Origin: Pseudomonadota bacterium
GTDB taxonomy: Bacteria; Pseudomonadota; Alphaproteobacteria; Sphingomonadales; Sphingomonadaceae
Reading direction: 5' to 3'
Length of the DNA stretch: 64,000 nucleotides
Assembly (NCBI GenBank): GCA_021847605.1
Contig: JAJZQN010000001.1
Coordinates: 124,001-188,000 of the forward strand
The position numbers were made by a program, and so were the translations under genes. Positions 61 to 11,532 of this stretch are shown one piece after another; the first letter of the stretch is position 1, and every line of letters starts with the position of its first letter. Below the pieces are notes generated by a model. The model was not told where the DNA came from. It ran no database searches and saw only the letters and a program-made list of their open reading frames with translations.

Positions 61-86
61 TTCAGGCCAGCGCAGGCTGGCCTGAA
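61..86. terminator. Perfect 11-bp hairpin at the end of two convergent genes
   Basis: TTCAGGCCAGC (61-71) and GCTGGCCTGAA (76-86) are perfect inverted arms around a 4-base loop. The hairpin lies 18 bases after the stop of the partial outer-membrane gene and overlaps the last codons and stop of the minus-strand transporter, so it could stop transcription from both sides. No long T run follows on either strand, so it is a hairpin of terminator type rather than a canonical intrinsic terminator. Confidence 0.5.
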
Positions 87-1036
87 CCATTACTGCCATG
101 TCGCCGATGAACCGCGACGCAGCTTATGACGCTGGCCACGACCAGAGCAAAGGCGGCAACTTCCATGACCGTGGGCAGCCGGTGCATCCACAGGAAGCCG
201 TAGATCAGCGCAAAGAGCGTTTCGAACAGGATCATCTGTCCGACGAGCGTCATGGGTAACAGGCGGCTTGCCCGATTCCACAAGGCGTTGCCAAGGATAG
301 AGGCGAAGATAGCGACTCCCGTCGATACCAGCGCGAATCGTCCCCATTCTGGCAGGCTGTGGCGAACAGGTTCGATGGCGAGCGTGACAGGGATGAGCAA
401 TAATGCCTGAGCGCCGGTCACAAGCCCGGTCAGCAAATTCCAGTCATGGGCGGCGAGATGGGGCAGGCGGCCGAGGCAACGGCTGTTGACCACGGCAAAG
501 ATCGTCCAGGATATGAGCGCACCGATTGCGAAGAAGAGACCTGTGACCCGAAGAGGGCTGGCGCCGTTGGCAGGGCCGGCCACCGCCTGCCACCCGATAC
601 AAATGGCCCCGGCAGTGCAGAGCAGGAGCGAGGGGGTGAGCCGGGTCAGCGCCACGGCATTATGATCGCGGCTGCCGATGATGGTGACGGCGACGGGTAG
701 AAAGCCGATGACCAGAGAGGTCAGCGCGATGCCGCCAGCATGAACGGCGCTCGACAGCAGCACGAAATAGACGATGTTGCCGGTCAGGCCCAGCCAGCAC
801 AGCGTCATCCAGTCGCGGCGGACGAGTTGCGAGGCAATGCTGCGCCAGCGTGGGGCAAGCATCATGGCGGATAATATGCCATAGGCCAGATAGCGCCCGA
901 TTGCGATTTGCAGCGGCGTGAATTCCCGAACCAGTTCAGGGGCGACGAACACCAGACCCCATATCGCGCCCGCACCCATGCCATAGCCGATGCCCAGCGT
1001 CATATTGTTCCCGTCCGACTGGCCCACCATGCCCAT
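62..1036 (-). CDS. EamA/DMT-family inner-membrane transporter
   Basis: A 324-residue, almost wholly hydrophobic protein with about ten predicted membrane helices arranged as two EamA-type repeats. The first repeat begins near residue 12 (GIGYGMGAGAIWGLVFVAPE) and the second near residue 165. Members of this drug/metabolite transporter superfamily usually export metabolites or amino acids; the substrate cannot be read from sequence. The frame is open to a TTG at 1054, but the ATG at 1036 has a GGAG four bases upstream and is preferred; 1003 is another option. The gene is divergent from an Lrp-type regulator 94 bases away, a common arrangement for exporters controlled by amino-acid-sensing Lrp proteins. 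Confidence 0.85.
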   Translation of the reverse strand: MGMVGQSDGNNMTLGIGYGMGAGAIWGLVFVAPELVREFTPLQIAIGRYLAYGILSAMMLAPRWRSIASQLVRRDWMTLCWLGLTGNIVYFVLLSSAVHAGGIALTSLVIGFLPVAVTIIGSRDHNAVALTRLTPSLLLCTAGAICIGWQAVAGPANGASPLRVTGLFFAIGALISWTIFAVVNSRCLGRLPHLAAHDWNLLTGLVTGAQALLLIPVTLAIEPVRHSLPEWGRFALVSTGVAIFASILGNALWNRASRLLPMTLVGQMILFETLFALIYGFLWMHRLPTVMEVAAFALVVASVISCVAVHRRHGSNGSGQPALA

Positions 1037-1130
1037 TTCGCTCCGATTTCCCAATGGAGGCAGGTCATATCATCGGCCGGGCGAGAAAAGTGCGCTTGAT
1101 CGGGGCTGAAAATGCAACAATTACTCGCTT

Positions 1131-1619
1131 ATGGCCATGAACCGACAGTCCGGCAGGCGTGCGCTCGACGCATTCGACCTTGCGATCCTGCGTATCGTGC
1201 AGAAGGATAACAAGACGCCGCAACGCACGATTGCGCAAGCGGTGAACCTGTCCGCTGCGGCCGTACAGCGCCGGATCGCGGCAATGGAGGAGGATGGGGT
1301 GATCGCGCGAAACGTCGCGATCGTCGATACGCGGGCGCTCCATATGACGATCACCTCCATCGTGGAGGTCCACCTTATCAACGAACGGCCTGCGACGGTG
1401 GACAGCGCCAAGGCGATCTTCATGGCCGCGCCGGAAGTGCAGCAATGCTATTATGTGACCGGCGGCATCAGTTTCGTGCTGGTGATCGTGACCCGCGACA
1501 TGATCGAATATGAAGCGATTACCCGCCGTCTGTTCGCCGATAGCGAGGCGGTGGCCAGTTTTCGCAGCCTGATCGCGCTCGATCGGGTGAAGACGGGCGC
1601 AGAAATTCCGATCTTTTGA
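1131..1619 (+). CDS. Lrp/AsnC-family transcriptional regulator
   Basis: A 162-residue protein with an N-terminal winged helix-turn-helix (about residues 12-65, FDLAILRIVQKDNKTPQRTI onward, with the recognition segment LSAAAVQRRIAAMEEDGVI). It is followed by a RAM/ligand-binding domain (about 75-155, with the VxxCYYVTGGISFVLVI core typical of Lrp proteins). It probably binds an amino acid or related effector and controls the divergent EamA transporter. No clear Shine-Dalgarno precedes the ATG at 1131; the ATG two codons later is an equally possible start. Confidence 0.9.
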   Translation: MAMNRQSGRRALDAFDLAILRIVQKDNKTPQRTIAQAVNLSAAAVQRRIAAMEEDGVIARNVAIVDTRALHMTITSIVEVHLINERPATVDSAKAIFMAAPEVQQCYYVTGGISFVLVIVTRDMIEYEAITRRLFADSEAVASFRSLIALDRVKTGAEIPIF

Positions 1620-1727
1620 GCGGGATGGGGTGCCGGTGCAGCCGCACTTCTTGTCCCCAAGGGGTGACGCCCCACATAAGGCGCTGTATGACGGCGGGCG
1701 ATACCGCATTGGCAGGAGATTAGAAGC

Positions 1728-2639
1728 GTGGCGACCCTTGGAATGAGCGAAACCGAAAAGGCGGCGGTGGAGGCATTTCGCCGCGACGTGGTGGAGCCGT
1801 CGCGCACGCAACTGGTGATCGTGGATTTCTGGGCCGAATGGTGCGGCCCGTGCAAGCAGCTTGCCCCCGTCATCGAAAAGGTGTGCGAGGAATATGCGTC
1901 CAAGGGCGTGAAGCTGGTCAAGGTGAATGTGGATGAAAATAGCTTCATTGCCAGCCAGTTCCGCGTGCAATCCATTCCCACCGTCTATGCCGTGTTTCAG
2001 GGGCAGCCGGTCGCCGACCTCAGCCAGGCGCGCACCGAAGGGCAGTTGAAACAGTATCTGGACCAGATATTGGGCCAGTTGCCGATCGAATCCGATGAAA
2101 AGGCGCAACTGGAAGAAATCGCCCCGCTGATCGCCATGGGTGAGGAATTGCTGGCCGGTGGCGAAGCGGAGCGCGCCTTATCGGTGTTTGCCCAGATTGC
2201 CGAGATCGCGCCCGACAATGTGGAAGTGGTCGCTGGACAGGCGCGTGCGCTGGTCGCACTCGGGCAGTTGGACGAGGCGGAAGCCGTGCTGGCCGCGCTG
2301 CCACCGGAACTGGCGAAGCATGGCGCCATCGATCAGGCGCGGGCCGCTATCGCGCTCGCCCGTGATGCCAAGCCTGTATCCGATCTGTCGGGTATAGAGG
2401 CGAAGGTGGCGGCCGACGCCAACGATCATGAGGCGCGGTTCGAACTGGCCGGTGGGCTGATGGCCAATGGCGACCGGGATGGTGCAGCCGATGCGCTGCT
2501 GGAAATCGTGCGGCGTGACCGGGCGTGGAACGATGGCGCGGCGCGGGCGCAATTGCTGAAGATTTTCGAGGCCGTCGGTCTGGAAGATCCGTGGGTATCG
2601 GCGCAGCGTCGCAAGCTGTCGCAGATCCTCTTCGCCTGA
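1728..2639 (+). CDS. cnoX: Thioredoxin-fold co-chaperone (CnoX/YbbN family)
   Basis: A 303-residue protein. Residues about 20-130 form a thioredoxin domain with the active-site motif WCGPCK (Cys39 and Cys42), and residues about 140-303 are a TPR-like helical region typical of YbbN/CnoX. The family holds oxidised unfolded proteins and passes them to DnaK/GroEL; this member keeps both cysteines, unlike the E. coli protein, so it may also be redox-active. The GTG start at 1728 has AGGAG nine bases upstream; an ATG five codons later is the alternative. It is followed four bases later by a Lon-substrate-domain gene, suggesting a protein-quality-control operon. Confidence 0.9.
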   Translation: MATLGMSETEKAAVEAFRRDVVEPSRTQLVIVDFWAEWCGPCKQLAPVIEKVCEEYASKGVKLVKVNVDENSFIASQFRVQSIPTVYAVFQGQPVADLSQARTEGQLKQYLDQILGQLPIESDEKAQLEEIAPLIAMGEELLAGGEAERALSVFAQIAEIAPDNVEVVAGQARALVALGQLDEAEAVLAALPPELAKHGAIDQARAAIALARDAKPVSDLSGIEAKVAADANDHEARFELAGGLMANGDRDGAADALLEIVRRDRAWNDGAARAQLLKIFEAVGLEDPWVSAQRRKLSQILFA

Positions 2640-2643
2640 AGTC

Positions 2644-3258
2644 ATGCCGTTGGCGCGAGTCTCTATCTTTCCCCTGTCCGGCGCCTTGCTGCTGCCGGGC
2701 ATGGACCTGCCGCTACATATATTCGAGCCGCGATACCGGGCGTTGATTCATGACGCCATGGCGCGCGACCGGCGCATCGGCATGATCCAGCCACGCAATG
2801 CCGGTCCGGTGCCGACATTGTTCGATGTTGGCTGTCTGGGCCATGTCAGCCAAATCGAGGCGCTGGACGACGGACGGTTCAATATCGTGCTGACCGGGCT
2901 GGCGCGGTTCCGGCTGGTGCGCGAACTGACGGTGCCGACCCAGTTCCGCCAGATCGAGGCGGACATCGAGCAGGCGCCGCAGGAGGACGAGATATTGTCC
3001 GCGATCGAGCGCGCCGCGCTGGAGCAGGAATCGCGCCGCTTCGCCGATGCGCTGGGCTATGTGGTGGACTGGACGGCGGTGTCACGGCTGGACGATATGG
3101 CGCTGGTGAACGGCATCGCACAGATTGCGCCGTTCGATCCGGCGGCCAAACAGACATTGCTGGAGGCGGACAATCTGTCCGAGCGGGCGGAACGGATCAT
3201 GCAACTCATGCAGATCGTCGGGCGGATAGAGCGCGACGGCGGAGCGACGATGCAATGA
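2644..3258 (+). CDS. Lon protease substrate-binding (LAN) domain protein
   Basis: A 204-residue stand-alone protein matching the N-terminal substrate-binding domain of Lon. It opens with [20 protein letters not shown] and the [12 protein letters not shown] segment that marks the family, and lacks any AAA+ or protease domain. Its biochemical role in bacteria is not settled; recognition of unfolded or degron-bearing substrates is inferred from the Lon domain. It starts four bases after cnoX and overlaps the next gene by four bases, so the three are likely co-translated. Confidence 0.88.
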
Positions 3259-3449
3259 GTGGGATTGAGGACGATGTAGCGCCGATCGATCCGTGGCTGC
3301 TTAAAAAGCTGGTATGCCCGGTGACGCGCGGGCCGCTGCGATGGGACGCGGTGCGTGGCGCGCTGGTATCGGACGCGGCGGGGCTGGCCTATCCGGTACG
3401 CGACGGCGTGCCGGTGCTGCTGGCGCGGGAAGCCGTGGCGATCGGGTGA
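3255..3449 (+). CDS. Trm112-family small protein (YcaR-like)
   Basis: A 64-residue protein with the YcaR/Trm112 pattern: [14 protein letters not shown] near residues 14-27 and [13 protein letters not shown] near residues 45-57. Bacterial family members usually keep only the first cysteine of the zinc site, as here. In other organisms Trm112 proteins activate methyltransferases; the bacterial partner is unknown. The ATG overlaps the stop of the Lon-domain gene (ATGA). Confidence 0.85.
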
Positions 3450-3460
3450 CTATATCGTAA

Positions 3461-3490
3461 ATCCCTCCCCAACCGAAGTGGGGGAGGGAT
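3461..3490. terminator. Bidirectional terminator between convergent genes
   Basis: ATCCCTCCCC (3461-3470) pairs perfectly with GGGGAGGGAT (3481-3490) across a 10-base loop. It lies in the 46-bp gap between the Trm112 gene on the plus strand and the RidA gene on the minus strand, so it probably ends both transcription units. The G/C-rich arms resemble the palindromic repeat at 26738, so it may also be a degenerate copy of an interspersed repeat. Confidence 0.6.
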
Positions 3491-3495
3491 GATCC

Positions 3496-3915
3496 TCACT
3501 TGAACGCGGCCAGACATTCCACTTCCAGCGGGGCGCCAAGGGCGAGGCCGTCGGCGCCGAAAGCGCTGCGGGTGGGTAGGCGCTTGCCCTCGAAATAGGG
3601 GAGATAGGCAGCGTTGAAGCGCGGCCAGTCGGCCATGTCGTCCAGCATCACCGTGCATTTGACCACATGGCCGAAGTCGAGACCGTTGCTGGCGAGAATT
3701 TTGCCGATCGAGTCCATCGCGCCCTTCACGGCGGCGTCGAACCCTTCCTTATGCGGGTCCATGCCCTTTGGTACCTGACCGATCTGACCCGACATATAGA
3801 GCATGTCGCCGACGCGGATGGAGGGGGAGAAGGGCAGCTTGGCAGGCAAGGGCTGCTGCGCGAGCGCGGGCGTGGCGGACAGCAGGAGCGCGGCGGCGGC
3901 GATCAGTTTCTTCAT
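3496..3915 (-). CDS. Exported RidA-family protein (second copy in the cluster)
   Basis: A 139-residue protein with a Sec signal peptide (about residues 1-19, MKKLIAAAALLLSATPALAQ) followed by a YjgF/YER057c/UK114 fold. The conserved arginine of active RidA proteins is present in the PTRSAFG segment near the C-terminus. Cytosolic RidA hydrolyses reactive enamines and imines made by PLP enzymes or amine oxidation; the signal peptide implies this one works in the periplasm. It is the last gene of a tight minus-strand operon, 19 bases after the class V aminotransferase, which fits a role in clearing the imines that operon makes. Confidence 0.85.
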   Translation of the reverse strand: MKKLIAAAALLLSATPALAQQPLPAKLPFSPSIRVGDMLYMSGQIGQVPKGMDPHKEGFDAAVKGAMDSIGKILASNGLDFGHVVKCTVMLDDMADWPRFNAAYLPYFEGKRLPTRSAFGADGLALGAPLEVECLAAFK

Positions 3916-3934
3916 GGTATATCCTCTTTAAAGA

Positions 3935-5206
3935 TCAGGCGCGGGGCAGGGCGGAAAGCAGGCGGTCGACATCCCGTTCGTCGTTGAACACGGACGGCGC
4001 GATGCGGAAATGATGGTCGTGCAGCGACAGGCGAACCTGAGCTTTTGCCAGGGGTTCGGCAAGCCGCGCCTTGGCATCGGGGTGCAGCGCGGTCAGCAGC
4101 GATGTTCTGGTGCCGGGGGGGGTGATGATGGCGTAGCCCTTGGCGGTCAGCCCTTCGCGCAGCGCACCGATAAGCTGCTGTGCATGCGCCTGAATGGCGG
4201 GGACGGTCAGCGCGCTGATGTAGGACAGGCTATGATCCAGCATCGCGGCAATCGCCTGCGCATAGGTGCCGGTGCCGAAATGGCCGAGCGCGCCGGGGCG
4301 GGCCATATAGCTGGTGGGCGCGTCGCCCGGCGGGTCCATGGGAAAGACATGGGTCAGTGGCGGTGACAGGCCGATGCCGGGGACGGCACCGGGCGCGGCA
4401 AAGCCATAATAGCCATATTCGCTGCGCGGCAACCGATCCGCCACGCCGCGCCGAACGTAGAGAAAGCCCAGCCCGAAATCGCCCATCAGCCATTTATAGG
4501 TGGCGCAGGCGGCGAAATCGACTCCGCTGCCGTGCAGGTCGACCGGGACGGCGCCGGCGGCATGAATGATGTCGGCATAGACGAGCGCGCCGGCCGCATG
4601 GGCAAGATCGCAGATCGCCTTCAGATCATGCTCGAAACCATTATAGGTAGAGACTTGCGATACGCAAACCAGCGTCGTGCCGGGCGTGATCGCGCGTGCC
4701 ATATCCTCCATCGGGATGCGGCCTTCGCGCGCCTGTACCCAGGCGACGTCGACGCCCTGTTTCGCCATTTCCTGATACATGGGGAAGGAAGCATAGAAAT
4801 GGAGCGTGTCGGTGACGATGCGGCCGCGCTTTTGCGGGAAGCCGATCGCGCGCAATACCGCCTGCTCGCCCATGGTGGTGGACTGGACCCATGTCACCTC
4901 GTCCGGGTCGGCGTTCACCAGCGCGGCGAAGCGGGCGAGGATGGCGGCGCGGTCCACCGGCTTCTTCGCTGAGGCAGCGGGATCGAGCGTGCGGGACGCC
5001 AGATAGGCGTCGGCCGCTGCCTTCGCACCCAGGCTGACGGGATGGGTGGAGGCGCTGTCGAAATAGGCGACCGGCGTGGTGGCGAAGCTGGCTTTATCGG
5101 GCAGGCTGACGGGCGTGCTGGCAGCAGATGGGGCCGCGCGGGCGGCCTGCGCCGCCAGCGGCATCGCGATGGCGGCGCCCAGTGCTTCCCGGCGGGAAAG
5201 GGTCAT
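3935..5206 (-). CDS. Tat-exported class V aminotransferase-fold enzyme
   Basis: A 423-residue PLP enzyme of the class V fold (isopenicillin-N epimerase/cysteine desulfurase-like). The N-terminus MTLSRREALGAAIAMPLAAQ has a twin-arginine-type motif and an Ala-rich region ending in AxA, so it is probably exported folded with its cofactor. The cofactor site is recognisable: VYADIIHAAGAVPVDL supplies the Asp and His, and ATYKWLMGDFGLGF contains the Schiff-base lysine. The start at 5206 overlaps the stop of the class I aminotransferase (ATGA); longer in-frame codons up to 5278 lie inside that gene and would hide the signal. Reaction unknown: transamination, racemisation or beta-elimination are all possible for this fold. 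Confidence 0.85.
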   Translation of the reverse strand: MTLSRREALGAAIAMPLAAQAARAAPSAASTPVSLPDKASFATTPVAYFDSASTHPVSLGAKAAADAYLASRTLDPAASAKKPVDRAAILARFAALVNADPDEVTWVQSTTMGEQAVLRAIGFPQKRGRIVTDTLHFYASFPMYQEMAKQGVDVAWVQAREGRIPMEDMARAITPGTTLVCVSQVSTYNGFEHDLKAICDLAHAAGALVYADIIHAAGAVPVDLHGSGVDFAACATYKWLMGDFGLGFLYVRRGVADRLPRSEYGYYGFAAPGAVPGIGLSPPLTHVFPMDPPGDAPTSYMARPGALGHFGTGTYAQAIAAMLDHSLSYISALTVPAIQAHAQQLIGALREGLTAKGYAIITPPGTRTSLLTALHPDAKARLAEPLAKAQVRLSLHDHHFRIAPSVFNDERDVDRLLSALPRA

Positions 5207-6333
5207 GCCAGCGCTTTGAGCAGAGCGGTCTTGAACGCCTGCATTTCGGCTGGCGTACCCATGGAGACGCGCACCCAATCGTCCATATGCTTGCGCGGAC
5301 CGCCGATGATGACACCGTCCTTCGCCAGCGCGGCGGTGACGGCGGCGCCGGGGCGGCCGACATGGATCATCATGAAACTGGCTTCGCTGGGCAGGGTGCG
5401 TAGCCCCTGCGCCTTACACCATGTCGCAAGATCATCGCGTACAGCCTTGTTTTCTGTCTTTCGCTTGGGGAGCAGGGTGGGATCAAGCAGGCTGGCCTCC
5501 GCTGCGACGACGGCGGGCATGGGCGTGATGTTGACGCCATAGCGCGCCATGCCGTCCAGCAAGTCCTTGCGTCCTGCAATCAGGCCGCAGCGAAGCCCCG
5601 CAAGTCCATATATTTTCGAGAAAGTCCGCGTGACGAGCAGGTCTGCATCCTTTGCCACCAGATCGAGGCAGCTTTGCGCATCGCTAAAGTGGATATAGGC
5701 CTCATCCATCAGAAGGATGCTGCCCTTGGGCTTGTTGGCGAGCAGCCATTCAATGTCAGCGCGCGGCGTGGTGAGGCCGGTCGGATTGTTGGGATTGCAC
5801 AGATAATAGAGCCCGGCATCGGGCGCGGCCGCGAGCAGCTTGCGTGGATCGGTGGTGAAATCGCCAGAGAGCGGCACCGCGACCGACCGGGTGATGCTGG
5901 CGTTACCGGCACCAAGAAACCCCTGATCGAAGGTCGGTTCGAAATAGGCGATGGGCCGTTCGGGCGAGCTATAGGTCAGCGCCACCGAACGCAGCGGCAT
6001 GAAGGAGCCGGGATGCACCTGCACCATGTCGGGTGACAGGCCGTTCTGGCGCGCGAACAGGCTTTCCAGCTTGGCGGCGAAGGCCATGCCATAGCGGCCC
6101 GACAATTTGGGCAGGTTGGCGAGCGCCGCCAGCGCGGCGGGGGCGGGGCCGTCGGGATGTTCGTTGCTGTTGATATAGACCGCATCGGTCAGCGTCGCGA
6201 CCATGCCGGCCGGATCGTCGGGCAGGGCAACCTTGCGATCGCGCTGGGCAAGGGCCGGTGCGGCGCTGGCTGCACCGGCGGCAGCCAGCGCGCCGCGCAT
6301 CATCATGCGGCGGGACAGGGGGCTATGGGTCAT
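5203..6333 (-). CDS. Tat-exported class I/II aminotransferase (HisC-like fold)
   Basis: A 376-residue fold-type I PLP enzyme most like histidinol-phosphate aminotransferases. An N-terminal SRRMMMRGALAAAGAASA segment with cleavage near APALAQ is a twin-arginine signal. Catalytic elements are intact: YLCNPNNPTG, LLMDEAYIHF (cofactor Asp), TRTFSKIYGLAGLRCG (Schiff-base Lys) and VRVSMG (substrate-carboxylate Arg). Histidine biosynthesis is cytosolic, so an exported copy must have another substrate. It overlaps the cytochrome c stop by four bases upstream and the class V gene by four bases downstream, indicating translational coupling. Confidence 0.87.
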   Translation of the reverse strand: MTHSPLSRRMMMRGALAAAGAASAAPALAQRDRKVALPDDPAGMVATLTDAVYINSNEHPDGPAPAALAALANLPKLSGRYGMAFAAKLESLFARQNGLSPDMVQVHPGSFMPLRSVALTYSSPERPIAYFEPTFDQGFLGAGNASITRSVAVPLSGDFTTDPRKLLAAAPDAGLYYLCNPNNPTGLTTPRADIEWLLANKPKGSILLMDEAYIHFSDAQSCLDLVAKDADLLVTRTFSKIYGLAGLRCGLIAGRKDLLDGMARYGVNITPMPAVVAAEASLLDPTLLPKRKTENKAVRDDLATWCKAQGLRTLPSEASFMMIHVGRPGAAVTAALAKDGVIIGGPRKHMDDWVRVSMGTPAEMQAFKTALLKALA

Positions 6334-6728
6334 TCTTCGCTCGTTTTTGCTGCGATGCGCTTCACATCGGCTTCCGATACCGGATCGGCATATTGGTTGT
6401 CGAAATGGGTGCGGACATAGCCGACCACGGACGCGACCTGCGCCGGAGTCAGCATTTCGGAGAACCAGGGCATCCCGCCCTGACCCTTCATGACGACGGT
6501 GATCGGGTAATCGGCGCTGGCGAGCTTCGCATTATGGGCCAGCGCCGGGACGGTGCCGTCCGGCGAACCCTGTGCCTTGTCCAGATGGCAGGCGGCGCAA
6601 ATCTGGTTATAGACCTGCTCGCCATCGGGCAGCGCCATCTTGACCGGACGCCCGCCCGGCGAATCCGCCAGAGCGGGGGCCGCCGCCAGCGCGGTCAATG
6701 CGGCGAGACGCAGGATCGCGGGACGCAT
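6330..6728 (-). CDS. Periplasmic monohaem cytochrome c
   Basis: A 132-residue protein with a Sec signal (about residues 1-21, ending AAPALA) and one haem-c site, CAACH, near residue 44. A distal Met in the GGMPWFSEML segment is the likely sixth ligand. The fold matches small class I cytochromes c that carry electrons to the respiratory chain. It starts two bases after the flavin amine oxidase stops and overlaps the next aminotransferase gene. It is therefore the natural electron acceptor for that flavoenzyme, which would then act as a dehydrogenase rather than a hydrogen-peroxide-forming oxidase (inference). Confidence 0.9.
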   Translation of the reverse strand: MRPAILRLAALTALAAAPALADSPGGRPVKMALPDGEQVYNQICAACHLDKAQGSPDGTVPALAHNAKLASADYPITVVMKGQGGMPWFSEMLTPAQVASVVGYVRTHFDNQYADPVSEADVKRIAAKTSEE

Positions 6729-6730
6729 GA

Positions 6731-8320
6731 TCAGGCCGCCTGCGCGCGTTCGTGGATCTGGGTGATCGCGTCGATACCCGACAGGATCGATCCTTCCATC
6801 CAGCCGCCATAATAGCTGGCATGTTCACCCGCCAGAACGACGCGATTGTCGAGCGTGACCAGATTCTTGTAATGCGCCTTGCGGTTTTCCTCGCTCCATG
6901 CGGACGTGCAGCCCAAAATCCATGGCACGCGGCTCCATGGCACGGACACGCCGCTCAGGAATTCCTTGCGATATTGTTCGGGGTGGAAGACCTCACCCTG
7001 CTTCAGCGCGGTTTCGATGCGCTGCTGCGGGGTCATGCTGGCAAGCTGGAACCCGGCAAGATCACGGGCGAAGGCACCCAGCAGCACGGCAGGGCCACGA
7101 CCGAACATCTTGTCATTGGGATAGGACAACTGGGTGATGGTCTGGTCGGTGAAGCTGTGACCGCCATAGATATTGTCATCTTCTTCCCAGAAGCGGCGCT
7201 TGAACTCCATGCCAATCTTGACATGACCGCCATAGGGAACGGCCTTCATCGCGGCCTTGAGCGCCGGCGATACCTGCATATCGACCTGGCTGATGATCGA
7301 CAGCGGGATGGTGCAGACGCACCAGTCGGCGCTGACGTCGTGCATCTGGCCGGTGGCGACATCCTTGTAACTGACGATGACGCCCTTGTCGGACTGGGCG
7401 ACCTTCGTCGCCTTTGCGTTATAGGTGACGATCTTGCCGATATTCTTGGCAAACGCCTTGCCGATCATGTCCATGCCGCCGACCGGCTGGAACATGGTGG
7501 TCTGCATCACATAGCTGAAATAGAAGGACATGGCGGTCCACACCTGCGGGTCCAGAACGTCCTGCAATTTCGCGATCTGCGATGGGGTGGGGGCGCCGTT
7601 GCGGCCGCCGCCGGGCGCCTGATCATAGCCGCGCTGGGCGGATACCTTCAGGTTGCTGCTATAGGCCATATTCTTGTCCAGCACGCCCCAGCCGCGCAGC
7701 GCCTCCATCAGCTTTTCCTGATCTTCCGCGGTCAGCTTGTCGTCCAGCGCCTTCGCGCTGATCGCCTTGGCCAGTAGTTCGGACGTGTGGCCTTTGAAGT
7801 CGGTCGCGACTTCCTTGTAGCGCATCGGCTTGCCGCCAAAGGCTTCGGACGAATGGATGAAGCCATTATGGTTGAGCTGGATGAAGGGCTCCAGCGCGAC
7901 GCCGAACTGGCGGCAATAATGGAGCAGCGCCTTGTGATGGTGCGGGATGCGCCACGGGCCGGGATTGATATAGTTGCCGGGCGCGAACTGAACCTTCTGA
8001 ACCGTGCCGTCGCTTTCCGTGAAGGTATCGCCGCCGCGCAGCGAATAGTTGCGGCCGCCGGGACGATCCTGAAATTCCAGTATCTTGACCGAATAGCCTG
8101 CCTTTTGCAGCTCATAGGCGGCGGCCATGCCGGCAAGGCCCGCGCCCAGCACGATGACGGACGCGCCCTTCTTTGCGCCGCTCAGGACCGGCGGGCCGGT
8201 GAACTGGGTTTCGGCCGCGTGGCCAAGGGCGGTCATCGCCTGATACATGGCGGCGGCCCCGCCGACCTTGCCGATCATGCTCAGCAATTGGCGGCGGCTG
8301 GGTTCGGTATGTTCGGTCAT
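6731..8320 (-). CDS. Tat-exported flavin monoamine/L-amino-acid oxidase family enzyme
   Basis: A 529-residue FAD amine oxidase. The N-terminus has SRRQLLSMIG, a good twin-arginine motif. VIVLGAGLAGMAAAYELQ near residue 55 is the FAD dinucleotide-binding motif, PGGRNYSLRGG follows it, and the C-terminal VVLAGEHASYYGGWMEGS segment is the second FAD-binding stretch of the L-amino-acid oxidase/monoamine oxidase family. It should oxidise an amine or amino acid to an imine, which RidA proteins hydrolyse. It follows an exported RidA gene by 79 bases and is coupled to cytochrome c downstream. The substrate cannot be told from sequence. Confidence 0.9.
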   Translation of the reverse strand: MTEHTEPSRRQLLSMIGKVGGAAAMYQAMTALGHAAETQFTGPPVLSGAKKGASVIVLGAGLAGMAAAYELQKAGYSVKILEFQDRPGGRNYSLRGGDTFTESDGTVQKVQFAPGNYINPGPWRIPHHHKALLHYCRQFGVALEPFIQLNHNGFIHSSEAFGGKPMRYKEVATDFKGHTSELLAKAISAKALDDKLTAEDQEKLMEALRGWGVLDKNMAYSSNLKVSAQRGYDQAPGGGRNGAPTPSQIAKLQDVLDPQVWTAMSFYFSYVMQTTMFQPVGGMDMIGKAFAKNIGKIVTYNAKATKVAQSDKGVIVSYKDVATGQMHDVSADWCVCTIPLSIISQVDMQVSPALKAAMKAVPYGGHVKIGMEFKRRFWEEDDNIYGGHSFTDQTITQLSYPNDKMFGRGPAVLLGAFARDLAGFQLASMTPQQRIETALKQGEVFHPEQYRKEFLSGVSVPWSRVPWILGCTSAWSEENRKAHYKNLVTLDNRVVLAGEHASYYGGWMEGSILSGIDAITQIHERAQAA

Positions 8321-8356
8321 GAATATGCTTCCCGTTTCTTACGGGCGACTATGCGC

Positions 8357-8386
8357 GGCAGGGGCTTCGCCCCCTTGTCCCCTGCC
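8357..8386. other. Hairpin between the RidA and amine oxidase genes
   Basis: GGCAGGGG (8357-8364) and CCCCTGCC (8379-8386) are perfect arms enclosing a smaller GGGG/CCCC pairing around CTTCG. It lies in the untranslated 79-bp spacer of a minus-strand operon and could act in mRNA processing or partial termination, or be a copy of an interspersed palindromic repeat. Confidence 0.45.
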
Positions 8387-8399
8387 ATGGCGCGAGGGG

Positions 8400-8885
8400 T
8401 CAGGGCGCCTTGGCGGCGACGGCCTCTACCTCGATCAATTGCTGCGGCCGTGCGAGGGCCGAAATCTGAAAAGCCGAACGGGTCGGCAGATTGGGTTGGT
8501 CGGCGCTGCCGAAGAATTTCTTGAACGCGCGGGCCAGGCCATCGCGATCCATCTTGCCGTCCTTCTTGGGATCGCCGACGAGGAATACGGTCAGCTTTAC
8601 CACATCGCCCATGGTCAGGCCCATTTCGGCAAGCTGACCCTTCATCTTGGTAAAGATCGACATGGCCTGCACTTCGGTATCGCCAAAGGCGTCGGGGCTT
8701 TCCATGTCCTTGGGGTCGATCGGCGCGGCGGTCGCACCGGACAGATAATAGATGGTGCTGCCCGGCGGGATGATGGCGGCGCTGGCGATCATGGCGCCCG
8801 GCGCCTGCTTATGTTCGACGGTGGCGGCGTGGGCCGATCCGGTCGCGGCCAGAGCGGCCAGAATCAATGCGGCACAGGTCTTCAT
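8400..8885 (-). CDS. Exported RidA-family protein (first copy in the cluster)
   Basis: A 161-residue protein with a Sec signal (MKTCAALILAALAATGSAHA) and a RidA fold. The catalytic-type arginine is kept in NLPTRSAFQ near the C-terminus, and IEVEAVAAKAP is the usual family ending. It is about 20 residues longer than typical RidA, with an insert near residue 90 (FLVGDPKKDGKMDRDGLARA). Because it precedes the amine oxidase, periplasmic imine hydrolysis is the likely role. It follows the TonB-dependent receptor gene after a strong hairpin, so its expression may be lower than the receptor's. Confidence 0.85.
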   Translation of the reverse strand: MKTCAALILAALAATGSAHAATVEHKQAPGAMIASAAIIPPGSTIYYLSGATAAPIDPKDMESPDAFGDTEVQAMSIFTKMKGQLAEMGLTMGDVVKLTVFLVGDPKKDGKMDRDGLARAFKKFFGSADQPNLPTRSAFQISALARPQQLIEVEAVAAKAP

Positions 8886-8912
8886 GACATTCCCCCCAGA
8901 TTTCGTAAAGCA

Positions 8913-8943
8913 GAAGGGCCGGTCCTGTATGGACCGGCCCTTC
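8913..8943 (-). terminator. Strong hairpin after the TonB receptor gene
   Basis: GAAGGGCCGGTCC (8913-8925) and GGACCGGCCCTTC (8931-8943) form a perfect 13-bp stem with a five-base loop. On the minus strand it begins 15 bases after the receptor stop and is followed by a weakly T-rich stretch. It probably ends most receptor transcripts or protects their 3' end, while allowing some readthrough into ridA. Confidence 0.7.
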
Positions 8944-8958
8944 CTTCGTGACCTCAGA

Positions 8959-11532
8959 TCAGAACTTGAAGTCGATGCGGGCGTAGTAATAACCGCCAGC
9001 CGTGCCGTACGGACCGAAGTTGTACGGGCTGTTATAGGCGGCCGAACCGTTGATGTAGGGCGACGTACCGGCAGGGATAGTCACGCCGGTCAGCAGGCCC
9101 GGAACTTCCGGCTTCTTGTTGAATGCGTTGTTCGCACCCAGCGAGAAGGTCACGGCATCGTTGAAGTCGTAGCTGACTTCGATGTCGGTGATGCCGGCCG
9201 GCTTGATCTTGGCTTCGTAGATGGTCGGCAGGCCAGCCGCGGTCAGCACGGAGGCGGACAGGCCCGGCTGCACCAGCAGGCTCGACTTGCCATAGAAGGT
9301 TTCACGCGCGTTCAGTGTGAACTTGCCGCTCTTGAACAGAGCGCCCAGCACAACCTTATATTCCGGCGAGGAATCTTCGACGTTGCTCTCGGAGATCGAA
9401 TTGAAGACCGTCGGAATATTGTTCTTCGTGATCTTCGTCTTGTTGTAGTTGGCCGAGAGCGACAGGTTCAGGCTGCCGAAGTCCAGAGCCACCGGATAGG
9501 CGGCCGAGAAGTCGATACCCCAGGTGCGGGTGTCGATGCCGTTGGTGAAGCTCTGCGCACCGATGTTCGGCAGGGCCGCATCGAACACCACGCCCGCCGC
9601 CTGAAGCGCCGAGATGATGGCCGGGGCTTCCGGCGTGGCAATCCCGCCCTGAACCGCGTAACGCGCGGCGGTCAGAGCGATGCGGTCCTTGATCTTGATG
9701 AGGTAGCCATCAAGGGTCACGGTCAGCTTAGGCACCGGCCGGAAAACGAAACCGCCCGAGAAGTTGGTCGATTTTTCAGGACGCAGGTTCGAGAAGCCCA
9801 GCAGGCTGGCCGCAGCGGAACCGGCCGGCAGCACCGCGACGGCGCTGGTCGGGCCGACGGCCACGGTCGAATAATGCTGTTCGGCGAGCGTCGGGGCGCG
9901 GAAGCCCGTGCTGGCCGTGCCACGGATGGCGATGGCGTCGCTGAAGTCGTAACGGCTCGTCACCTTGCCGATCAGCGTGTCACCGGCGTCGCTATAATCT
10001 TCATAGCGGCCGGCAAGGTCGATCGACCATGCATCCACCGGCTTGGCGATCAGGTTGATGTAACCAGCCTTCGAGCTACGCGCCCAGTCGCCTGCGTCGC
10101 TTGCCTTATAACCCGGGAAGGATTGAACGCCGGTCTTGTAGGTCGAATAATAGTCACCGGCGACGATTTCATAGGTGTCGCGGCGATATTCGCCACCAAA
10201 GGCAAAGGTGATCGGCTCGGCCAGACCCGCTTCGAATTCCTTGCGGATGTCAGCCGTGACCGTGGTCTGGCTCAGGCGGAAACCACCGTCATAGGCGGAA
10301 TCCGGGGTGTTGGGCAGAACGCCCGAACCGGCCAGATATTGGGCATAGGTTTCCTGCCACACTTCACGATGGGCCGAATTTTCGGTCCAGATTTCGTTCT
10401 TGTCATGGCCGTAGGTGGTCGAGACGTCATAGTTCCAGCCACCGCCAAATTCGCCCTTGGCGCCGATGGTGAAGCTATATTCGTCCTGCGCCACATGCTG
10501 GAGCGGGACCATGCCGACGACGCCGGTGTTGCCATAGCAGATGCTGCTGGCATCATACGCTGCCGACGTTACGCTGCCGCCGATGTTGCCGGCTTCGTAG
10601 CAGACGCGCTTGGGATGGCGATAACCCTGCTTGGCATAGCCGACACGACGGGCATAGTCACCGAAGCTGTAGAGTTCGACGCCGCCGAAGTCATAGCCCA
10701 TATTGTAGAAGACGTTGGTGAGGTATGTCTTGGGCTGGCCGCCGTTGATGTGCGCCAGTGCGTCACCCGACAGGTTCGACCACTGAGCCGGAGCGTTGGG
10801 CTGAAGCGAACCGTCAAGCTGCGTTACCTGAACCTGGCCGGTGCCGGTGGTGGTGTAATCCTGACGACGGTGGAAAGCGGAGAGGTTGAAATAGCCGTCT
10901 TCGCCCAGCTTGAACCCGACATTGCCGGAAACCGAGAAGAGTTCGCCTTCGCTATTATAGTTCTGGCCGCCCGTGACCTTGAAGCTGCCACCTTCGGTAT
11001 CGTCCTTGAGGATCAGGTTGATAACGCCGGCGATCGCGTCGGTGCCGTAAACGGCCGCAGCGCCTTCCTGAAGGATTTCGACGCGCTCGATGGCATCTGG
11101 CGGAATGAGGTCGAGGCTGGGTGCCGCCGAGCCGCCAAAAGGACCGCTGGCAACCTGAAGAATGGCCGAGCCGTGACGACGCTTGCCATTCACCAACAGC
11201 AGTGTGTGGTTGGGCGACAGTCCGCGCAGGCGAGCCGACAGCGAGAAGCTGGACATGTCGGTGCCCTGCGTCTGGGCGGTGAAGCCCGGAACGATCTGGG
11301 TCAGGACCTGGTTGAGGTTGGGCTGGCCGACATGGCTGATAGCCTCCTGGCTCAGCACCTGAACCGGTGCGGCAGCTTCGGCAGCCGACATGCCGACGGC
11401 GCGGGTGCCAGTGACGATGATGGCGTCACCGCCATCGGCCTGCGGTTCCTGCGGTGCGGTCTGCGCCATGGCGCATGCCGACCAGGACGAAGCCATAATC
11501 AAAGAAATCTTAAGCGCGGAAAGTCGCGTCAT
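8959..11532 (-). CDS. TonB-dependent outer-membrane receptor
   Basis: An 857-residue protein with a signal peptide (about residues 1-23, ending AMAQ). A plug domain spans about 35-165, including VQVLSQEAISHVGQPNLNQV, the LLLVNGKRRHGSA segment and RVEILQEGAAAVYGTDAIAG, followed by a long beta-barrel ending in YYARIDFKF with the terminal Phe needed for outer-membrane insertion. It belongs to the nutrient-uptake type rather than to siderophore receptors with extended N-terminal signalling domains. Its place upstream of the exported amine-catabolism genes suggests it imports the substrate of that pathway into the periplasm (inference). Confidence 0.95.
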   Translation of the reverse strand: MTRLSALKISLIMASSWSACAMAQTAPQEPQADGGDAIIVTGTRAVGMSAAEAAAPVQVLSQEAISHVGQPNLNQVLTQIVPGFTAQTQGTDMSSFSLSARLRGLSPNHTLLLVNGKRRHGSAILQVASGPFGGSAAPSLDLIPPDAIERVEILQEGAAAVYGTDAIAGVINLILKDDTEGGSFKVTGGQNYNSEGELFSVSGNVGFKLGEDGYFNLSAFHRRQDYTTTGTGQVQVTQLDGSLQPNAPAQWSNLSGDALAHINGGQPKTYLTNVFYNMGYDFGGVELYSFGDYARRVGYAKQGYRHPKRVCYEAGNIGGSVTSAAYDASSICYGNTGVVGMVPLQHVAQDEYSFTIGAKGEFGGGWNYDVSTTYGHDKNEIWTENSAHREVWQETYAQYLAGSGVLPNTPDSAYDGGFRLSQTTVTADIRKEFEAGLAEPITFAFGGEYRRDTYEIVAGDYYSTYKTGVQSFPGYKASDAGDWARSSKAGYINLIAKPVDAWSIDLAGRYEDYSDAGDTLIGKVTSRYDFSDAIAIRGTASTGFRAPTLAEQHYSTVAVGPTSAVAVLPAGSAAASLLGFSNLRPEKSTNFSGGFVFRPVPKLTVTLDGYLIKIKDRIALTAARYAVQGGIATPEAPAIISALQAAGVVFDAALPNIGAQSFTNGIDTRTWGIDFSAAYPVALDFGSLNLSLSANYNKTKITKNNIPTVFNSISESNVEDSSPEYKVVLGALFKSGKFTLNARETFYGKSSLLVQPGLSASVLTAAGLPTIYEAKIKPAGITDIEVSYDFNDAVTFSLGANNAFNKKPEVPGLLTGVTIPAGTSPYINGSAAYNSPYNFGPYGTAGGYYYARIDFKF

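Follow-up and report, generated by a model that had tools for sequence, protein, structure and literature searches.

A nested gene row behind a Sphingobium TonB-dependent receptor, with conserved export signals and a putative role in periplasmic amino-acid deamination

How might a sphingomonad take nitrogen from amino-acid-like compounds before they enter the cytoplasm? The question is raised by a gene row in a 64,000-nucleotide stretch of DNA (the window) from a bacterium of the Sphingomonadaceae (assembly GCA_021847605.1, contig JAJZQN010000001.1, positions 124,001 to 188,000 of the forward strand). The row comprises seven genes, all on the minus strand from 11532 down to 3496 of the window, for a TonB-dependent receptor (TBDR) and six further proteins with export signals. 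Imine chemistry and pyridoxal phosphate (PLP) enzymes are usually regarded as cytosolic. On balance we lean towards the view that the receptor supplies amino-acid-like compounds, which the enzymes of the row deaminate in the periplasm along two routes. In the order of the row, the features are:

8959..11532, minus strand: TBDR, 857 aa; Pfam Plug and TonB_dep_Rec; Sec-type signal.
8912..8944, minus strand: terminator-like hairpin just 3' of the TBDR stop codon, with a 14-bp GC-rich stem and short T runs; z -4.4.
8400..8885, minus strand: RidU, Rid3-type imine hydrolase-like protein; Sec-type signal; best solved relative PFL_1385, 115 bits.
6731..8320, minus strand: LAO, flavin L-amino acid oxidase/dehydrogenase; twin-arginine (Tat) signal; best solved relative 2jae, 288 bits.
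6330..6728, minus strand: CycC, cytochrome c by Pfam, with CxxCH; Sec-type signal.
5203..6333, minus strand: AT1, class I PLP enzyme, periplasmic-transaminase-like by its NCBIfam PRK09105 and PtaA scores; Tat signal.
3935..5206, minus strand: AT5, class V PLP enzyme; Pfam Aminotran_5; Tat signal.
3496..3915, minus strand: RidD, RidA-type imine hydrolase-like protein, the usual partner of TBDR; Sec-type signal.

An earlier reading made from the DNA letters alone (the sequence-only reading) had described seven co-directional genes, and its families, coordinates, gaps and overlaps were exact, the families being confirmed by Pfam. LAO and CycC are separated by 2 bases, CycC/AT1 and AT1/AT5 each overlap by 4 bases, and a 19-base gap precedes RidD. 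The start of AT5 is the ATG at 5206; a TTG is also present upstream. All seven genes are under purifying selection, with ratios of nonsynonymous to synonymous substitution rates (dN/dS) of 0.04–0.31, and 0.46 in one cytochrome comparison, over seven pairwise comparisons in which some relatives lack some of the seven genes.

Because the nearest named LAO loci are those of Sphingobium (93–95% identity; S. limneticum, S. cupriresistens and four others), the genus set of 94 genomes was taken as Sphingobium. Matches to LAO occur in 27 of these genomes, to AT1 in 26 and to AT5 in 30 (E up to 1e-100), to TBDR in 68 (1e-150) and to RidD in 57 (1e-30). We compared the best LAO, PLP-enzyme and TBDR locus of each genome, leaving out a 41%-identical receptor in genome G418, second copies of the receptor or LAO, and RidD matches of about 50% in G414 and G454. 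TBDR occupies the same chromosomal place in 61 of the 94 genomes, with lysA-argH-TlpA on one side and LON-TrxN on the other, as judged by at least one flank. Occupancy behind it is nested: TBDR stands alone in 10 genomes, with RidD in 20, with one or two PLP enzymes added in 18, and with RidU-LAO-CycC added in 13. The loci hold, after TBDR:

None of the six genes: 10 loci (G469 is cut by a contig end; G273, G416 and G423 keep RidD elsewhere).
RidD only: 20 loci.
AT5-RidD: 4 loci.
AT1-RidD: 1 locus.
AT1-AT5-RidD: 13 loci.
RidU-LAO-CycC-AT1-RidD: 1 locus.
RidU-LAO-CycC-AT5-RidD: 1 locus.
All six, which makes seven genes with TBDR: 11 loci.

Order and orientation at this place are unbroken, and the enzyme genes always lie between TBDR and RidD. 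RidD is present in all 31 loci with a PLP enzyme and a PLP enzyme in all 13 loci with LAO (hypergeometric 3e-4 and 4e-4, ignoring relatedness). AT5-RidD was met once without an adjacent TBDR, in G273. On a lysA and argH tree the locus changes state at least 17 times (59 of the 61 loci), and LAO presence changes at least five times, at least three of them on well supported branches; the tree fits gain or loss. The arrangement is real and conserved. Synteny in close relatives, on which the sequence-only reading had staked its case, holds in that LAO and the PLP enzymes are contiguous in 13/13 genomes with both, and fails in that all seven genes are found at the place in 11 of the 94 genomes. The idea of one fixed pathway did not survive, since across the genus the flavoenzyme cassette separates from the PLP enzymes, and both from the pair of receptor and RidA.

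Export signals were judged by motif tests (twin-arginine motif, hydrophobic N-terminus) other than SignalP, on orthologues from 45 genus loci. The twin-arginine motif is present in 31/31 LAO, 26/26 AT1 and 30/30 AT5 sequences, and the RR of LAO is invariant in an alignment of 37. A hydrophobic N-terminus is found in 26/26 RidU, 26/26 CycC (all 26 with CxxCH) and 33/33 RidD sequences, and in 30 of 36 TBDR sequences; five of the six misses score 1.55–1.6 against the cut-off of 1.6 and the sixth is a match that starts inside the protein. Another 21 RidD copies, 20 of them from loci with no enzyme gene between TBDR and RidD, all have the hydrophobic N-terminus and the catalytic Arg, and 17 have an AxA motif. 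As a control, the genome of the window contains eight matches to PF01042, two of which are pieces of one apparent gene, and by inspection only RidU and RidD carry an N-terminal signal. The two pieces adjoin each other (G000:C71:16610-16950; model positions 5-67 and 71-120), as if by a frameshift or assembly error. The claim that every enzyme bears a Sec or Tat signal was thus upheld, and the signals are conserved in all enzyme orthologues tested. The Tat signals belong to all the enzymes with a cofactor, flavin adenine dinucleotide (FAD) or PLP, and the Sec-type signals to the other four proteins, which fits the expectation that cofactor enzymes are exported folded. For the PLP enzymes PvdN and PtaA, Tat export in folded form has been established (PMC6206403). 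From these motifs we infer that the six proteins are actually exported.

The oxidation core consists of LAO, CycC and RidU. The best solved relative of LAO is the Rhodococcus L-amino acid oxidase 2jae. RidU is closest, among solved structures, to PFL_1385 and PSPTO_3006, which are Rid3 proteins that hydrolyse imines from an L-amino acid oxidase in vitro (PMC5619798). The rule for Rid3 is that Arg and Glu are kept while Ile replaces Tyr17 (PMC4433059); in our alignment RidU has Ile at the RidA Tyr17 column and keeps the catalytic Arg and Glu. Within the 45 genus loci RidU is present in all 26 with LAO and in none of the 19 without it. The 27th genome with LAO, G465, has a Rid3 gene about 4 kb from LAO on the other strand. 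A test of independent pairs on the tree for LAO against Rid3 offered three usable pairs only, all agreeing (p 0.25). In a wider set, the best 80 of 227 candidate LAO loci, drawn from sphingomonads, Caulobacter, Phenylobacterium, acetic acid bacteria and Bradyrhizobium, a CycC match adjoins LAO in 79; the 80th ends at a contig edge.

Using a primer from PMC5053998 we reached the lao-cccA-ridA locus of Gluconacetobacter diazotrophicus, with a match in 2 of 14 genomes of Gluconacetobacter. Of the two stretches, one carries all six lao-cccA-ridA primers and the other five of them; in the six-primer stretch the operon proteins are 60, 49 and 48% identical to LAO, CycC and RidU, and a signal-like N-terminus on the Gluconacetobacter Rid was read in the other stretch (L142). 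Orthology and adjacency of the three genes, though in a different order, place the LAO-CycC-Rid3 trio in this operon type. In G. diazotrophicus, Tn5 insertions in lao abolish the formation of indoleacetic acid (IAA) from tryptophan, the expression of lao, cccA and ridA falls together, and a Tat signal is predicted for LAO (PMC5053998). The hypothesis put forward there is that the flavoenzyme forms an imine for Rid and passes electrons to cytochrome c, at a periplasmic place that its authors call unconfirmed; earlier work cited in the same paper found that IAA drops to 5% when cytochrome c maturation is lost. A Tat flavoprotein amine oxidoreductase encoded next to a Sec cytochrome c is in many cases a dehydrogenase to which that cytochrome serves as acceptor (PMC12224317), and both of these genetic criteria are seen here by motif tests, a Tat signal on LAO and a Sec-type signal on the adjacent cytochrome c. 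The same scheme of imine, Rid and cytochrome c outside the cytoplasm, proposed by the sequence-only reading, gains support to the extent that it matches this published hypothesis and these genetic criteria. By analogy, cytochrome c is the likely electron acceptor of LAO; we say likely and not certain because the clade 1 Tat flavoenzymes of PMC12224317 reacted slowly with their adjacent cytochrome c. Recent transfer of the LAO cassette was considered and rejected. In four close pairs LAO is 93–95% identical against 78–85% for the PLP enzymes, but its synonymous divergence (dS) of 0.36–0.47, slightly below the 0.50–0.80 of the flanking genes, indicates constraint and not fresh transfer.

RidD keeps different company. 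It scores 81 bits on the RidA subfamily model TIGR00004, below the curated cut-off of 106, and keeps Arg and Glu with Phe at the Tyr column, so that by sequence it is a Rid protein of uncertain subfamily that may work like RidA. It lies downstream of TBDR in 51 of the 61 loci. The two Rid proteins are not interchangeable, as RidU tracks the flavoenzyme and RidD the receptor. We had considered RidD as the partner of the PLP enzymes, for in the first 45 loci it was found in 32/32 with a PLP enzyme against 1/13 without. This candidate was dropped, and the table is confounded by the choice of loci, because 20 TBDR-RidD loci carry no PLP enzyme.

AT1 scores 413 bits on PRK09105 (NF006580), below the curated cut-off of 444. 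Its PLP lysine, Lys240, and R355 are invariant in an alignment of 44, and its structural model (predicted local distance difference test score, pLDDT, 88) has a HisC-like fold. AT5 falls below every curated cut-off among 25 of the 27 NCBIfam families listed. It reaches 55 bits on kynureninase (TIGR01814; cut-off 246), though kynureninase 1qz9 is its best solved sequence match, and 83 bits on the cysteine desulfurase SufS (TIGR01979; cut-off 475). Lys238, Asp212, His215 and Arg401 are invariant in an alignment of 50, and the model (pLDDT 91) has a desulfurase/kynureninase fold. Searches with the two models returned folds only and added no function. Near the C-terminus, R355 of AT1 and R401 of AT5 presumably bind the substrate carboxylate. 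Since the PLP lysine and the C-terminal Arg are kept and dN/dS is low (0.12–0.25), AT1 and AT5 are probably active enzymes. The genome of the window also has, at L129 (G000:C87) and L132, two tandem AT1-like genes (40 and 34% identical to AT1), and a similar pair occurs in G352.

Just after the receptor an uninterrupted stem of at least 10 bp is found in 57 of the 61 loci, with a T run at the 3' arm in 54. No 10-bp stem was reached in any of 61 shuffled sequences (one mononucleotide shuffle each), and six of seven TBDR matches away from the place lack such a stem. In the window the tail is T-poor and is not called by a stricter 5-T terminator rule. In sequence the hairpin resembles a terminator, or possibly an attenuator, set between receptor and enzymes. 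By eye, its arms change together between species, and it stands at the same spot in L106, L183 and others.

Hints of the substrate come from related arrangements. A receptor of the same family precedes Rid3-LAO-CycC-LAO at another place in five genus loci, with a divergent Rid gene. Rows of receptor, Rid3, LAO and CycC with a divergent Rid, most with a second LAO, stand in the sphingomonad loci L020, L024, L037, L123 and L177. In L024 a DAO-type oxidoreductase gene adjoins the divergent Rid, and in L020 an RND pump lies downstream. Distant AT5 relatives (39–53% identity) at other places, loci L108–L121, have a partial match to other TonB-dependent receptors within about 3 kb in 11 of 14 cases (L108–L114 and L116–L119). 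The one locus annotated more fully, L108, is surrounded by genes for S10 carboxypeptidase-like peptidases, an amino-acid permease, an amidohydrolase and an ornithine-cyclodeaminase-type protein. In L017 (Sphingobium fuliginis) a gamma-glutamyltranspeptidase gene at 3549-5420 lies about 3 kb upstream of a PLP-free Rid3-LAO-CycC cassette. Because such neighbours include peptidases, a permease, a gamma-glutamyltranspeptidase and receptors, the substrate class points, by association, to amino acids or short peptides. A distant parallel is seen in L068 (Komagataeibacter melomenusus, 1598-10961), where LAO-CycC, an AT1-like gene (39%), a receptor (33%) and a second LAO-CycC stand in one row.

Taken together, a possible scheme is as follows. 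TBDR would supply amino-acid-like compounds to enzymes in the periplasm. LAO likely oxidises an L-amino acid and would hand the electrons to CycC and not to oxygen, while RidU would hydrolyse the imine. AT1 and AT5 likely act on the same amino-acid pool, and RidD probably clears imine or enamine by-products of the PLP enzymes. More doubtful, though possible, is a fuller version in which TBDR is paired with an exported RidA as a constant two-gene unit at a fixed place in Sphingobium, to which different species add in nested fashion first the PLP enzymes and then an L-amino acid dehydrogenase that is linked to cytochrome c and has a Rid3 to itself. The product would be a complete periplasmic line for stripping amino nitrogen, with two chemistries and two matched imine scavengers.

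Several observations weigh against the proposed shared line. In 10 of the 61 loci none of the six further genes accompanies TBDR, the G469 locus among these being cut by a contig end. Of the 27 genomes with LAO, 14 carry it away from the place, and in these 14 neither AT1 nor AT5 was matched at the thresholds used. Across the 94 genomes the association of LAO with PLP enzymes is weak (13 with both, Fisher p 0.09); the signal lies in the arrangement and not in genus-wide co-occurrence. Outside the genus Rid is a less regular neighbour of LAO than CycC: of the 80 related loci, 39 have a Rid gene no more than 3 kb from LAO, in three of these on the other strand only, against 79 with CycC. The slow reaction of the clade 1 flavoenzymes bears on the electron route. 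With the conserved hairpin, co-expression of receptor and enzymes is not assured, which argues against one simple operon. Some of these points could mean that the neighbourhood is merely tolerant of insertions, the receptor having its own terminator and function and the enzyme modules having settled downstream without a shared substrate. We consider this fairly unlikely. The hairpin directly after the receptor in most loci and the solitary receptors would suit it, as would eight genus loci in which the LAO cassette lies elsewhere with no receptor match in the examined stretch. However, the order and orientation are never broken at the place, the enzymes are always held between receptor and RidD, occupancy is nested, and in the five genus loci described above Rid3-LAO-CycC again follows a receptor of this family, there at a different place.

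The PLP enzymes could instead serve tailoring and not catabolism, modifying a peptide ligand imported by the receptor as PtaA and PvdN do with pyoverdine, where a Tat class I and Tat class V pair acts and either may be absent (PMC6206403). Here too, 7 of the 31 loci with a PLP enzyme have only one of AT1 and AT5, and AT1 scores 321 bits on the PtaA model (NF051461), with the Tat motif and PLP lysine present. Yet that score is below the curated cut-off of 500, AT5 scores 19 bits on PvdN (NF051467) against a cut-off of 650, and L-amino acid oxidation with two Rid proteins is not part of pyoverdine tailoring as PMC6206403 describes it, at least in its available text; we hold this explanation to be unlikely. 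Improbable to a like degree is a plain oxygen-using L-amino acid oxidase that releases hydrogen peroxide and 2-oxo acids (or indolepyruvate and IAA) outside the cytoplasm, with cytochrome c only as a peroxide or heme accessory. The annotation of 2jae as an oxidase speaks for it, as does Chlamydomonas LAO1/RIDA, which yields peroxide and IAA (PMC10805672), but cytochrome c adjoins LAO in nearly every related locus over several orders, and the drop of IAA in G. diazotrophicus after loss of cytochrome c maturation runs counter to it.

The chemistry is not an undescribed one: LAO with Rid outside the cytoplasm is described for Gluconacetobacter (as a prediction; PMC5053998) and Chlamydomonas (PMC10805672), and Tat-exported PLP enzymes for pyoverdine tailoring (PMC6206403). 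The closest known system is lao-cccA-ridA of G. diazotrophicus PAL5, with an orthologous Tat flavoenzyme, a cytochrome c and a signal-bearing Rid side by side. There Rid follows cytochrome c, whereas Rid3 precedes LAO here; queries with the receptor, the PLP enzymes and RidD gave no match in the two 13-kb Gluconacetobacter stretches; and that operon makes indolepyruvate for auxin (PMC5053998). NicA2/Pnao with CycN of Pseudomonas putida S16 and related dehydrogenases likewise set a Tat flavin amine oxidoreductase beside a Sec cytochrome c, but they form a different branch from the L-amino-acid-oxidase-like LAO; Rid, TonB and L-amino acid are absent as words from the main text of PMC12224317. 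PtaA and PvdN share with our row the Tat-exported pair of class I and class V PLP enzymes, either of which may be absent, and differ from it in that AT1 and AT5 score below both cut-offs and are accompanied by an oxidase, two Rids and a receptor. Periplasmic LAO1 of Chlamydomonas with LAO2/RIDA also pairs an extracytoplasmic L-amino acid oxidase with Rid; it belongs to an alga, gives hydrogen peroxide as a by-product, and has no cytochrome c or PLP partner named in the available text of PMC10805672. Rid3 beside an FAD amine oxidase is a genomic pattern in PMC4433059, whose main text lacks the words periplasm and cytochrome. Searches of open-access literature listed no paper with this gene set in its title or the opening of its abstract. 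The oxidation core is already known; for the frame of receptor and RidA, the pair of Tat-signal PLP enzymes and the nested build-up, these searches turned up no published account.

Elsewhere in the window, an EamA-family transporter gene (62-1054, minus strand) diverges from an Lrp/AsnC-type regulator gene (1131-1619, plus strand), a common pairing for amino-acid export. No Rfam family reached gathering scores anywhere in the window.

The locus thus places a flavoenzyme that is probably linked to the respiratory chain beside a receptor, two signal-bearing Rids and two Tat-signal PLP enzymes. Its nested series amounts to natural knock-outs, since species with one, two, three to four or six to seven of the genes can be compared directly. 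Such a comparison of variants would show the role of a receptor-coupled RidA and whether this branch of L-amino acid oxidases in truth consists of dehydrogenases. It would also show how sphingomonads exploit the nitrogen of amino acids, or produce auxin, prior to cytoplasmic uptake.

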